Assembly (NCBI RefSeq): GCF_026239695.1
Contig: NZ_JAPIVS010000007.1
Location: 62,001-126,000, forward strand
Reading direction: 5' to 3'
From: Pedobacter sp. MC2016-15
GTDB taxonomy: Bacteria; Bacteroidota; Bacteroidia; Sphingobacteriales; Sphingobacteriaceae
DNA: 64,000 bases
Shown: positions 57,562-62,484 of the stretch, piece by piece
Layout of the letters: the number at the start of each line of letters is the position of its first letter
Position numbering within the stretch: the first letter of the stretch is position 1
The notes under the pieces: model-generated
The model's database searches: none
Told to the model about the DNA's origin: nothing
What the model saw: only the letters and a program-made list of their open reading frames with translations
Translations under genes and position numbers: made by a program

Positions 57562-57592
57562 TTGCTTATTCAAAAAATATAACTTTACTTTA
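57562..57592 (+). promoter_or_regulatory. Candidate promoter of the thr operon
   Basis: TTG (57562-57564), a 20-bp spacer and TTACTTTA (57585-57592), a loose TAnnTTTG-type box like those before other genes here. An alternative TAACTTTA (57580-57587) has too short a spacing. It would start RNA near 57599, about 30 bases before the leader ORF. Confidence 0.45.
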
Positions 57593-57630
57593 TGGCGCAG
57601 CAACAACTAAATAGTTTTTGCTCCTGAAAT

Positions 57631-57696
57631 ATGAAATCACCTATTACAATTACATCCATTATTATTACCACCACCGGCATGTCCGGAGGCAGGTGA
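57631..57696 (+). CDS. thrL: Thr/Ile-rich leader peptide of the threonine operon
   Basis: ATG at 57631 opens 21 codons ending in TGA at 57694-57696. Five are Ile (ATT) and five Thr (ACA or ACC), so 10 of 21 residues are Thr or Ile, with runs III and TTT together at codons 10-15. This is the composition of thrL leader peptides (E. coli thrL is likewise Thr/Ile-rich). It lies 83 bp before thrA and upstream of a strong terminator. No Shine-Dalgarno is evident, which is normal for the phylum. Translation of this peptide is inferred, not shown. The gene symbol is given by position and composition. Confidence 0.82.
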   Translation: MKSPITITSIIITTTGMSGGR

Positions 57697-57729
57697 GCTA
57701 ATGGTATAAAGAAAATATAAAAAACCATA

Positions 57730-57766
57730 GAAAGCGCCTTCCTCTAAACGGAAGGCGCTTTTTTTT
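57730..57766 (+). terminator. Attenuator terminator of the thr operon
   Basis: AAAGCGCCTTCC (57730-57741) pairs exactly with GGAAGGCGCTTT (57749-57760) around a 7-nt loop, followed by a T-tract to 57766. It ends 13 bp before the thrA ATG. GGAGGC (57685-57690), the end of the leader ORF, can pair with GCCTTC (57735-57740) of the left arm, giving a candidate antiterminator. A ribosome stalled at the Thr/Ile codons would leave that segment free; one reaching the stop would cover it. Confidence 0.85.
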
Positions 57767-57779
57767 TAATTCTAAAATT

Positions 57780-60227
57780 ATGAATATTTTAAAATTCGGA
57801 GGTACTTCAGTCGGTTCAGCAGAAGGCATCCGTACCCTGATCAGTATACTGAAGAAGGGAGAGCAGGAAGAGTATCCTGTAGTAGTACTCTCGGCGATGA
57901 GCGGCGTAACCAACCTGCTGCAGCTCATGGCAGAGAAAGCACTTTTAGCTGAGGAATATGCTCCGGAACTCAAACAAATTGAGGAAAAGCATTTCCAGGT
58001 GGTGCGTGAGTTGTTACCTGCATCTGCACAGAACCCGGTGTTTACCAAATTAAAGATCTACTTTAATGAACTGGAAGACATCCTGCAGTCGGTATATACT
58101 TTAAAGGAATTGAGTCCTCAGACCAGGGATTCTATCCTGAGTTTCGGAGAGCGCTGTTCTACATTCATGATCAGCCATATTGCCAGACAAGATTTCCCTG
58201 CTGCACTTGCCGTGGATGGGGCTGAACTGATCAAAACTGACAGCAACTACGGACAGGCGAAAGTAAATACGCCTTTAACAGAAATGCTGATCCAGGATTT
58301 CTATGCAGCTAATCCTGATAAATTGTTGTTTGTAACCGGATATATTGCCAGCAACACTGAAGGCAGAATCACTACCCTGGGACGCGGCGGTAGCGATTTT
58401 ACTGCTGCGATATGGGGATCTGCCTTAAACGTGAACCAAATTGAAATCTGGACTGACGTAGACGGTATGCTGACTGCCGATCCAAGGATTGTTGAAAAAG
58501 CATTCTCATTGTCAGAACTGAGCTATACCGAAGCGATGGAACTTTCATATTTCGGTGCCAAGGTGATTTATCCGCCAACGATGATCCCTGCCTTTTTAAA
58601 GAAAATCCCTATTGTCATCAAGAATACCTTCAATACAGATTTTGATGGTACGTATATCCGCCATGGCGCAGATTCTTCGGACCTGCCGATCAAAGGAATT
58701 TCATCTATCGATGATATCAGTATCCTGAACCTTTCCGGTAGTGGTATGGTAGGAAAAGCTGGTTTTAGCGGCCGTCTGTTCTCCCTTTTATCAAGAGAGC
58801 AGATCAATGTAGTGCTGATCACACAATCTTCATCTGAGCACAGTATCACTTTTGCAGTGAAGCCGGAAGATGCACTGAGAGCGCTGGCGATCATCAGCAA
58901 AGAATTTGAACTGGAACTCCATGCCAAGAAACTGGAATATCCGCAGGTAGAAAACGGATTGTCTGTACTGGCAATTGTAGGGGAGAACATGAAACACACG
59001 CCCGGTATGTCTGGCAAGTTATTTCATGCCCTGGGCAGAAATGGAGTGAACGTAAGAGCAATAGCACAGGGATCTTCAGAATACAATATCTCGGTAATCC
59101 TGTCGAAAAACGATTTGTCTAAGGCGGTGAATGCAGTGCATGACGCTTTCTTTGCTGATCTGAAAAAGACGCTGCATATCTTTTGTCTGGGCACAGGAAA
59201 TATTGGTAAAACATTGTTCCGCCAGCTGCTTAGCCAAACTCCGCATTTAGCGAAGAACAATGATCTGGAAGTAAAGGTAATGGGTATCAGCAATTCCCGC
59301 CAGATGAGTATGAGCAGCACAGGATTTGATCTTGCCAACTGGGAAGAGGAAATGCAGGTTAATGCAGAGCCCGCTGATCTGAAGGATTTTGTGAAGCAGA
59401 TGAAGGCAATGAACCTGCCGAACTGCGTTTTTGTTGATAATACAGCGAGTCCTAATCCTGTATATTATTATCAGGATATCCTGGAATCAAGCATCTCAGT
59501 GGTGACTTGCAATAAAATTGGTAACTCTGGAGAATATAGCCAGTACAGTGCATATAAGGCTGCTGCACGAACCTACGGGGTAGATTTTCACTATGAAACT
59601 AACGTAGGTGCAGGCTTGCCGATTATCCGCACCCTGAAAGACCTGATGATGAGTGGTGACAATATCGCCAGCATTGAAGCGATCCTGTCTGGTACCATTT
59701 CTTATATCTTTAACAATTTTAAAGGAGATGTGAAATTTCATGAGATCGTGAAGTCTGCACAGGACATGGGTTATACTGAACCTGACCCGCGCGACGACCT
59801 TAACGGGAAGGACTTTATGCGGAAGATGCTGATCCTGGCCAGGGATGCCGGATATCCTCTGGAAGAAGCTGATATCGAAATTGAAAGCATGCTCCCTGCT
59901 TCTTGTCTGGCGGCGGCAACAGTAGCTGATTTTTACCAGGAGCTGGAGAAAAACACGGAATACTTTGAAAATCTCAAAACAACGGCTGCCAGCAGTGGAA
60001 AAGTGCTGAGATATATTGGCAAGCTGGAAGCGGGTAAGGTAGCGATTACACTGCAGATGGTAGATGATTCGCATCCTTTTTATATGTTATCAGGTAGTGA
60101 TAATATTATTTCTTTTATCACTGATCGGTATAAAGACCGTCCTTTAGTGGTTAAGGGGCCAGGTGCAGGTGCAGAAGTTACTGCAGCAGGAGTATTCGCA
60201 GATATAATAAATGTAGGTAAGAGATGA
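57780..60227 (+). CDS. thrA: Bifunctional aspartokinase / homoserine dehydrogenase I
   Basis: An 815-residue fusion catalysing the first and third steps from aspartate to threonine and methionine. N-terminal aspartokinase (about 1-290: NILKFGGTSVGSAEGI, GRGGSDFTAAIWG), two ACT repeats (about 310-460) for allosteric control by threonine, then homoserine dehydrogenase (about 465-815: HIFCLGTGNIGKTLF nucleotide loop, SILSGTISYIFNNF-type active site in EAILSGTISYIFNNF, DPRDDLNGKDFMRKMLILARDAG). It overlaps thrB by 4 bp. Control by the attenuator upstream is inferred. Confidence 0.96.
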   Translation: MNILKFGGTSVGSAEGIRTLISILKKGEQEEYPVVVLSAMSGVTNLLQLMAEKALLAEEYAPELKQIEEKHFQVVRELLPASAQNPVFTKLKIYFNELEDILQSVYTLKELSPQTRDSILSFGERCSTFMISHIARQDFPAALAVDGAELIKTDSNYGQAKVNTPLTEMLIQDFYAANPDKLLFVTGYIASNTEGRITTLGRGGSDFTAAIWGSALNVNQIEIWTDVDGMLTADPRIVEKAFSLSELSYTEAMELSYFGAKVIYPPTMIPAFLKKIPIVIKNTFNTDFDGTYIRHGADSSDLPIKGISSIDDISILNLSGSGMVGKAGFSGRLFSLLSREQINVVLITQSSSEHSITFAVKPEDALRALAIISKEFELELHAKKLEYPQVENGLSVLAIVGENMKHTPGMSGKLFHALGRNGVNVRAIAQGSSEYNISVILSKNDLSKAVNAVHDAFFADLKKTLHIFCLGTGNIGKTLFRQLLSQTPHLAKNNDLEVKVMGISNSRQMSMSSTGFDLANWEEEMQVNAEPADLKDFVKQMKAMNLPNCVFVDNTASPNPVYYYQDILESSISVVTCNKIGNSGEYSQYSAYKAAARTYGVDFHYETNVGAGLPIIRTLKDLMMSGDNIASIEAILSGTISYIFNNFKGDVKFHEIVKSAQDMGYTEPDPRDDLNGKDFMRKMLILARDAGYPLEEADIEIESMLPASCLAAATVADFYQELEKNTEYFENLKTTAASSGKVLRYIGKLEAGKVAITLQMVDDSHPFYMLSGSDNIISFITDRYKDRPLVVKGPGAGAEVTAAGVFADIINVGKR

Positions 60228-61159
60228 GATCGTCAGTAAAAGTTTTTGCGCCAGCTACAGTTGCCAACGTAGTTTGCGGGTTTGATGTGTTAGGATTTGC
60301 AGTAAATGAGCCGGGGGATGAGGTGATCATGCGGGTAACAGATACGCCGGGAGTGTTGATCTCCAAAATTACCGGTGATGAAGGACGTTTGCCGCTAAAT
60401 CCGGCAAAAAATACTGTGAGTGCAAGTGTTCAGGATTACCTGAAACATATTGGACGTACAGATATCGGAATAGATATAGAGTTACATAAAAAGATGCCGA
60501 TTGGCAGCGGGCTGGGTTCCAGCTCTGCAAGTACGGTGGCAGGCCTTTTTGCGATCAATACTCTGTTTGATAACCAGCTTACAGCTCAGGAACTCGTGCC
60601 CTTTGCGATGAAAGGTGAGGAGCTTGCCTGTGGGTACGGTCACGCAGATAATGTAGCCCCGGCCTTGCTGGGAGGATTTGTGTTGATCAGAAGTTATGAG
60701 CCACTGGATGTGATCAGTCTTCCTTTTCCTGAAGAGATGTATGCAGCTATAGTATATCCTGAAGTGGATGTGCCTACAAAAGATGCGCGCCAGATGATCC
60801 GTTCCAAGGTTTACCTTAAAGATGCGGTAAAACAATGGGGGAATGTAGCGGGACTGGTAACAGGTTTGTTCACTAAAGACTACGACCTGATTGGCCGCAG
60901 TATGGTTGACGGACTGGTGGAGCCTACGCGTTCTATCCTGATCCCTGATTTCTATAAAATGAGAAGTATTGCCATGGAAATGGGTGCCATCAGCTTTGGT
61001 ATTTCTGGCTCCGGCCCTTCGGTTTTTGCCTTGACGAAAGACGAATCCACAGGTCATGCGATCACTCAGGCTTTACAGAAACAACTAAAATCCATCCAGA
61101 TCAACAGTTTATCATTTGTATCATCAGTTAATAAAAAAGGTCCGGTTGTACTGGATTAA
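60224..61159 (+). CDS. thrB: Homoserine kinase
   Basis: A 311-residue GHMP kinase that phosphorylates L-homoserine. The ATP loop is visible as PIGSGLGSSSASTVAG, plus FAPATVANVVCGFDVLGFAV at the N-terminus and GISGSGPSVFALTK near the C-terminus. Starts inside the end of thrA (4-bp overlap) and precedes thrC by 11 bp. Confidence 0.96.
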   Translation: MRSSVKVFAPATVANVVCGFDVLGFAVNEPGDEVIMRVTDTPGVLISKITGDEGRLPLNPAKNTVSASVQDYLKHIGRTDIGIDIELHKKMPIGSGLGSSSASTVAGLFAINTLFDNQLTAQELVPFAMKGEELACGYGHADNVAPALLGGFVLIRSYEPLDVISLPFPEEMYAAIVYPEVDVPTKDARQMIRSKVYLKDAVKQWGNVAGLVTGLFTKDYDLIGRSMVDGLVEPTRSILIPDFYKMRSIAMEMGAISFGISGSGPSVFALTKDESTGHAITQALQKQLKSIQINSLSFVSSVNKKGPVVLD

Positions 61160-61170
61160 AGTATATCAGA

Positions 61171-62484
61171 ATGAAATTATATAGTACTAATAACCACGAC
61201 CTGGAAGTAGACTTTCAGTCGGCTGTTTTTAACAGCATGCCACAGGACAAAGGATTATATATGCCGACAGAGATCCCTGTGCTGGATGAAGATTTCCTTA
61301 AAAACCTGGACAAATACACCCTTCCGGAAATTGCCTATAAGGTGGCGTCAGCTCTGTTGCAGGACGATATTCCTGCGGATGACCTGAAGGCACTTATTGA
61401 TGATGCCATCAATTTTCCTGCTCCGGCTAAAAAGCTGGATGAGGAAACTTATGTACTGGAACTGTTCCATGGCCCCTCATTGGCTTTCAAAGATTTTGGA
61501 GCGAGATTTATGAGCAGGGTGATGGGCTATTTCCTGAAAGACGGAGAGCAATTACTGGATGTTCTGGTAGCTACATCAGGTGATACCGGTGGCGCAGTGG
61601 CGCTGGGCTTTCTGGGGGTGCCCAATACACGTGTGACAATCTTATATCCCAAAGGAAAGGTGAGTGAAATCCAGGAGTTGCAATTGTGCAGCAATGGACA
61701 GAATATCCGCGCTATAGAGATCGACGGAACATTCGACGACTGCCAGGCACTGGTAAAACAGGCTTTTGCAGATGATCAGCTGAACGCCGAAATGAGACTT
61801 ACCTCAGCCAATTCGATCAATATTTCAAGACTGATTCCTCAGACGTTTTACTATTTCAATGCCGTAGCACAATTGTACAGGGAGGGTAAAAGAGACATTG
61901 TGTTTTCTGTGCCAAGTGGCAACTTTGGTAATATCGCTGCAGGATTACTGGCCTGGAAAATGGGCTTGCCGGTAAAACAATTTATTGCTGCTACCAATGC
62001 CAATGATACTGTGCCTCGTTTCCTGGAAACAGGGGTTTATGAAACCCGTCCCTCAGTTCAAACTTATGCAAACGCAATGGACGTGGGTGCACCAAGTAAC
62101 TGGGTAAGGATCATGGAACTGTTTAAGCAGGATACTGTAAAGCTGAAAGAACTGGTAAAGAGCTACCGCTATACGGATGATGATACAGTGAAAGCTATTG
62201 AAGCCATTTACCAGCAGTTTAACTATGTAGCTTGTCCGCATACTGCAATCGCATGGCTGGCAGTTCAGGCCTACAAAGCTGAATACCCATCGGCAGAGGA
62301 TGCTTTCGTCTTTTTATCAACGGCACATGCCTGCAAGTTCCCGGATATTTTCTCTGCTGAAATGGCTGCACATATTGATTCTCCGGAGCAATTGGAAGAG
62401 TTGAAAAAGAAAGGTAAATCAGCTACACCAATGAATGTGGATTTTGAAGCCTTTAAAGGGTTTTTACTTACTGAATCTTTTTAA
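61171..62484 (+). CDS. thrC: Threonine synthase
   Basis: A 437-residue PLP enzyme converting O-phosphohomoserine to threonine. PLP Lys in the motif GPSLAFKDFGARFMSRV, the phosphate loop ATSGDTGGAVALGF and the later VPSGNFGNIAAGLLAWKMG are all present. It completes the thrABC operon. Its last 17 bases overlap the convergent META gene. Confidence 0.96.
   Translation: MKLYSTNNHDLEVDFQSAVFNSMPQDKGLYMPTEIPVLDEDFLKNLDKYTLPEIAYKVASALLQDDIPADDLKALIDDAINFPAPAKKLDEETYVLELFHGPSLAFKDFGARFMSRVMGYFLKDGEQLLDVLVATSGDTGGAVALGFLGVPNTRVTILYPKGKVSEIQELQLCSNGQNIRAIEIDGTFDDCQALVKQAFADDQLNAEMRLTSANSINISRLIPQTFYYFNAVAQLYREGKRDIVFSVPSGNFGNIAAGLLAWKMGLPVKQFIAATNANDTVPRFLETGVYETRPSVQTYANAMDVGAPSNWVRIMELFKQDTVKLKELVKSYRYTDDDTVKAIEAIYQQFNYVACPHTAIAWLAVQAYKAEYPSAEDAFVFLSTAHACKFPDIFSAEMAAHIDSPEQLEELKKKGKSATPMNVDFEAFKGFLLTESF

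Follow-up and report, generated by a model that had tools for sequence, protein, structure and literature searches.

Naville and Gautheret stated in 2010 that, before their own case in Firmicutes, leader-peptide systems had been shown only in Proteobacteria and Actinobacteria (PMC2965389). In B. thetaiotaomicron, short ORFs located in long 5' UTRs are reminiscent of the leader peptides involved in attenuation (PMC7366714); they are leader-like, and a thr leader is not described there. Furthermore, a leader peptide has been proposed to mediate attenuation in Flavobacterium psychrophilum (PMC9723704), which belongs to the same phylum as Pedobacter and to another family; the paper does not name the thr operon in its main text. 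An older predicted cis-regulatory RNA of Bacteroidetes, Bacteroid-trp (RF01692; PMC2864571), is tied to trp genes by its name. No covariance-model match to Bacteroid-trp was obtained in the window (the whole stretch of 64,000 nucleotides analyzed here) or in its genome. Two out of 60 genomes of the class gave a match, both under the cut-off, and none was found in Sphingobacteriaceae. The broad survey reportedly made by Lopatovskaya et al. in 2010 may already list thr leaders from Bacteroidota.

Here, we describe a leader located upstream of thrABC in the soil bacterium Pedobacter sp. MC2016-15 that is very probably a classical ribosome-mediated transcription attenuator. The basis of this reading is a conserved ORF, mutually exclusive structures, co-variation and the operon context.

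The thrABC leader and its predicted operation

The features of the locus are given in Table 1. The candidate promoter resembles the TTG/TAnnTTTG form of Bacteroidota, and TATAACTTTACTTTA is conserved at the same promoter position in most members of the window's clade; a generic sigma-70 scan gave no promoter match on the + strand. Of the 79 relatives, 78 have a weak hairpin predicted in front of the leader, with GGTGTA-N-TACAC in many of them. Since it is barely better than shuffled sequences (a median of 16 shuffles out of 100 fold equally well), it is not claimed here as a functional part.

Table 1. Features of the thr locus (positions in the window)
Feature	Position	Strand	Details
Candidate promoter	57562-57593	+	TTG 57562-57564, 21 nt, TACTTTAT 57586-57593; predicted
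5' hairpin just before leader start	57600-57621	+	Predicted fold; function uncertain
Leader peptide ORF	57631-57696	+	MKSPITITSIIITTTGMSGGR, then stop; 21 codons, regulatory Thr/Ile codons 5-15; frame conserved
Hairpin 1:2 (protector/pause)	57656-57704	+	Left arm 57656-57677, right arm 57683-57704
Antiterminator segment 2	57685-57705	+	GGAGGC 57685-57690, GU 57693-57694, CU-AUGGU 57698-57705
Antiterminator segment 3	57724-57741	+	ACCATAG 57724-57730, GCGCCTTC 57734-57741
Intrinsic terminator 3:4	57731-57767	+	Stem 57731-57742/57750-57761, loop 57743-57749, U-run 57759-57767
thrA, bifunctional aspartate kinase/homoserine dehydrogenase I	57780-60227	+	NF006959, 1026.7 bits (cut-off 726)
thrB, homoserine kinase	60224-61159	+	NF002288, 383.5 bits (cut-off 194); TIGR00191
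thrC, threonine synthase	61171-62484	+	TIGR00260, 298.3 bits (cut-off 167.1)

Translation of the leader ORF agrees with the preliminary description of this DNA, which reported 21 codons including ten Thr/Ile codons; five of these encode Thr and five Ile. Among ORFs of 12-45 aa with an ATG start, no other in the 64 kb reaches nine Thr/Ile per 12 codons, and first-order shuffles give a mean of 0.03 such ORFs per 64 kb. The ORF has no Shine-Dalgarno sequence. This absence, already pointed out in the preliminary description, is not peculiar to this leader and is ordinary for Bacteroidota: Bacteroidetes mRNAs lack this sequence and favor A at -3, -6 and -11 to -15 (PMC7366714).

An intrinsic terminator follows the leader ORF and precedes thrA. 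Its stem comprises 12 Watson-Crick pairs, or 14 pairs if one A-U and one G-U are added; the perfect 12-bp stem and the U-tract had been recognized previously, but with limits one base too low (57730-57766). The fold z-score is -5.1. The region is AT-rich and short ORFs are often over-read at first reading, which could suggest a composition artefact of the intergenic region, placed by chance beside the ordinary terminator of another gene. Such a coincidence is hardly conceivable: a comparable Thr/Ile ORF arises in 2 of 20,000 shuffles of the 255-nt intergenic region, a comparable terminator in none of 2,000, and both features are conserved at 79 loci out of 79. Moreover, the upstream neighbor is divergent (57524 to 56604, minus strand) and the terminator therefore serves no other gene of the + strand.

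Two further structures involve the coding part of the leader. The left arm of hairpin 1:2, a hairpin absent from the preliminary description, consists of the Ile/Thr codons, and its right arm contains the leader stop codon. In the antiterminator, 57685-57690 pairs with 57736-57741 in one helix and 57698-57705 with 57724-57730 in another. The first had been proposed as a pairing of GGAGGC with GCCTTC. GGAGGC is indeed at 57685-57690 (codons 19-20), whereas GCCTTC is at 57736-57741 and not at 57735-57740; the pairing stands, but not as a single helix, the second one having been missed. Segment 3 shares bases with the left arm of the terminator, so that pairings 2:3 and 3:4 are mutually exclusive. 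Pairing and co-variation point to an antiterminator whose free strand would be set by the position of the ribosome.

The ribosome stalling, termination in vivo and amino-acid response that we infer would proceed as follows. RNA polymerase would transcribe the leader with a ribosome trailing on the 21-codon ORF. When charged tRNA-Thr (and tRNA-Ile) is ample, the ribosome would reach the stop codon, which is inside segment 2, and mask this segment; terminator 3:4 would then form and transcription would end before thrA. Under shortage of Thr (or Ile), the ribosome would stall on codons 5-15 and cover the left arm of hairpin 1:2. Segment 2, left free, would pair with segment 3 by the two helices, preventing formation of the terminator and allowing transcription of thrABC. 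If the leader is not translated, hairpin 1:2 would form, leading to termination by default.

Conservation and co-variation among relatives

We collected 80 thrA loci, nearly all from Pedobacter, the others being from Daejeonella oryzae and three MAGs. Two were left out because their upstream sequence ends too near thrA; the 78 others and the window make up the usable set of 79. According to the preliminary description, attenuation would be refuted if close relatives lacked a conserved leader ORF or terminator. Both the Thr/Ile-rich ORF and the terminator are present in all 79 loci, as well as in eight more Sphingobacteriaceae belonging to other genera or species (L092-L094, L162-L166). The classical thr attenuator geometry that it had recognized is also found, segments 1 to 4 being all present and co-varying. 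In some relatives, the terminator is 60-190 nt from thrA.

The leader is a short ORF enriched in codons for the product of the operon, and its frame is conserved. In a set of 35 non-redundant leaders, single-base differences in the ten codons up to the end of the Thr run number 825 synonymous and 575 non-synonymous in frame, versus 208:1121 and 706:1687 when the same codons are read in the other two frames; being counted pairwise, these differences are not independent of one another. The final two codons of the run encode Thr in 35 and 33 of the 35 leaders, respectively, whereas earlier positions swap among Ile, Thr and Ser, Ile being often replaced by Thr or Ser. Since the last two codons are kept as Thr while the Ile positions change, threonine would be the primary signal and isoleucine a secondary one, as far as codon usage can tell.

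T-boxes and riboswitches are common before amino-acid operons and use terminators, so that one of them might occupy this position instead of a ribosome-sensing leader. This is extremely unlikely, as none of the T-box or riboswitch families of Rfam matched within 10 kb, with E values up to 5 allowed, and the conserved element is a Thr/Ile reading frame with synonymous drift and not an aptamer.

Compensatory changes in the stems, which the preliminary description had proposed to look for, were found: RNAalifold on a MAFFT alignment indicates that 8 of the 18 pairs of the consensus have changed on both sides; seven of these eight belong to the terminator stem. This consensus supports the terminator strongly but recovers just a short part of hairpin 1:2, as segment 2 is wrongly aligned between clades by MAFFT. 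Pairings 1:2 and 2:3 were judged by per-sequence pairing and between-species swaps instead. Segments 2 and 3 change jointly between clades (GGAGGC/GCGCCUUCC, GCGGGGC/GCGUCCCG and CUGGGGG/GCGCCCCC), and the second, distal helix also has clade variants (CUAAUGG/CCAUAG, UUUGUUGU/ACACAG and CUAGUGGUAUA/UAUACUAG). For 51 non-redundant loci, the mean energy of cognate 2:3 pairing is -16.8 kcal/mol versus -14.3 for between-species swaps, and that of 1:2 pairing is -11.8 versus -10.3 kcal/mol; swaps did as well in 0 of 5000 permutations in both cases, in a test that ignores relatedness and rests on a few clade-level changes.

These data also bear on the possibility that the terminator is real but that the leader works otherwise, by a peptide acting in trans, by translational coupling to thrA or by Rho, the alternative structures being incidental. 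Leader peptides of attenuators can act in trans, as peTrpL does (PMC7298713). Furthermore, some thr leaders of Bacteroidota have no U-tract terminator, and a Thr leader can therefore evidently work without one. Nevertheless, this explanation is very unlikely for Pedobacter. The distance from leader stop to thrA, 83 nt in the window and about 80 to more than 300 nt in relatives, is too long and too variable for reinitiation. The ends of the peptide vary freely (GMSGGR, GINQRG, GIARRKVS, GQCLMGKR) while RNA pairing is maintained, which points to a function of the RNA in cis. Finally, the terminator and antiterminator co-vary. Ribosome-mediated attenuation is thus the reading that we retain.

Leaders without a U-tract terminator

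The regions upstream of thrA were also examined outside Sphingobacteriaceae, in a wider sample of 198 genomes of the class and 392 of the phylum. Forty-two loci harbor a Thr-rich leader ORF ending with TTP, TTPLG, TTR or TTG before the stop codon; their Thr content is selected, as they were chosen for their Thr run. A U-tract terminator between ORF and thrA was not detected in these 42 loci, called type B hereafter, with the exception of L115 (recorded a second time as L129), for which a hairpin with a T-run is predicted near thrA. Such leaders (L103, L110, L117, L120-L128, L133-L148, L188, L189 and others) are located 60-190 nt upstream of thrA.

Type B differs from the window's type (type A, with a U-tract terminator) in several respects. 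The distance from the last Thr codon to the stop has a median of one codon versus six, and the stretch following the stop contains more C than G in 33 of the 42 loci versus 11 of the 79 loci of the window's type. Scored by script, hairpins that span the stop codon reach high values in 27 of the 42 loci, compared with 9.6% of shuffles and 29% of between-family swaps; these hairpins are small and have 16 distinct stem sequences. Several other type B loci carry a hairpin just before the stop codon. CATAT occurs at most 45 nt after the stop in 28 of the 42 loci, and many type B leaders are followed by CATATNAYC and C-rich, G-poor sequence. An Rfam scan of ten type B loci gave no credible match. 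When 28 genomes were searched for a pattern combining the type B hairpin and CATATNAYC, mostly thrA sites were retrieved, over a background of about one per genome, and no further operons.

The same two designs are found upstream of hisG. All 12 Pedobacter genomes examined (L229-L240) carry a His leader with an HHLHLHH motif and a hairpin around or adjoining the stop codon, which is the design of type B thr leaders; no strong terminator was found between leader and hisG in any of the 12. The window's own genome is one of them (L239, MNKHLNHHLHLHHRQLWR, G000:C10 near 110649). In most hisG loci examined by eye in Flavobacteriaceae and related families (L283-L298, L253, L272), a His run is followed by a GC-rich hairpin and a U-run. 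Type A is used for thr in Sphingobacteriaceae and for his in Flavobacteriaceae and others, and type B for thr in Flavobacteriaceae and others and for his in Pedobacter, including the window's genome: the designs at hisG and thr are largely exchanged between lineages. One member of family f22 (L178, genome G497) has an isolated classical thr leader, MNFIITTTTISTTTTISSCRKVCL, with a terminator; the other sampled members of the family have type B. Moreover, an Ile-rich leader (MN-NTNIISN-II-IS...) with a terminator precedes ilvD in six of 12 Pedobacter genomes (L242-L245, L247, L250); it is absent from this position in the window's genome (L241).

Our tentative proposal, which could well prove wrong, is that Bacteroidota have two interchangeable leader designs, type B being a new class in which a ribosome starved beside the stop codon blocks exposed RNA. 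The RNA guarded by the stalled ribosome would most simply be a Rho-loading site. Type B would then act in the manner of tnaC, yet sense a scarce amino acid. Type B may be Rho-dependent; its C-rich sequence and the position of its codons would fit Rho-dependent termination that is blocked by a ribosome stalled at the stop codon.

Comparison with known thr attenuators

The Pedobacter leader scores 34.3 bits with the Rfam Thr_leader model (RF00506), less than the gathering score of 55 bits. We did not retain this score as evidence, as unrelated places of the genome score as high: the model reaches 40 bits elsewhere in the same genome and has matches in 13 of 14 control genomes. The leader is not filed under RF00506 because it is below the cut-off and the model matches such unrelated places.

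The Pedobacter attenuator would provide a case of amino-acid sensing by ribosome position in a phylum where translation mostly starts without Shine-Dalgarno pairing, and makes the timing of transcription and translation in Bacteroidota directly testable. The comparison also reveals, in other lineages, a second leader design that lacks the terminator and takes the place of the first at these genes; if it is truly Rho-dependent, it would be a new way of building an amino-acid switch.

Compared with thrL of E. coli, the leader belongs to another phylum, has no Shine-Dalgarno sequence and has no significant match to RF00506. It shares with thrL a 21-codon Thr/Ile leader, a fused AK-HSD thrA as first gene, a hairpin 1:2 that takes in the regulatory codons and carries the stop codon in its right arm, and a GC-rich terminator followed by a U-run. 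Even the distance from leader stop to thrA is similar (81 nt in E. coli). By every feature that can be tested here from sequence, the Pedobacter leader is a new example of the known ribosome-mediated thr attenuators.
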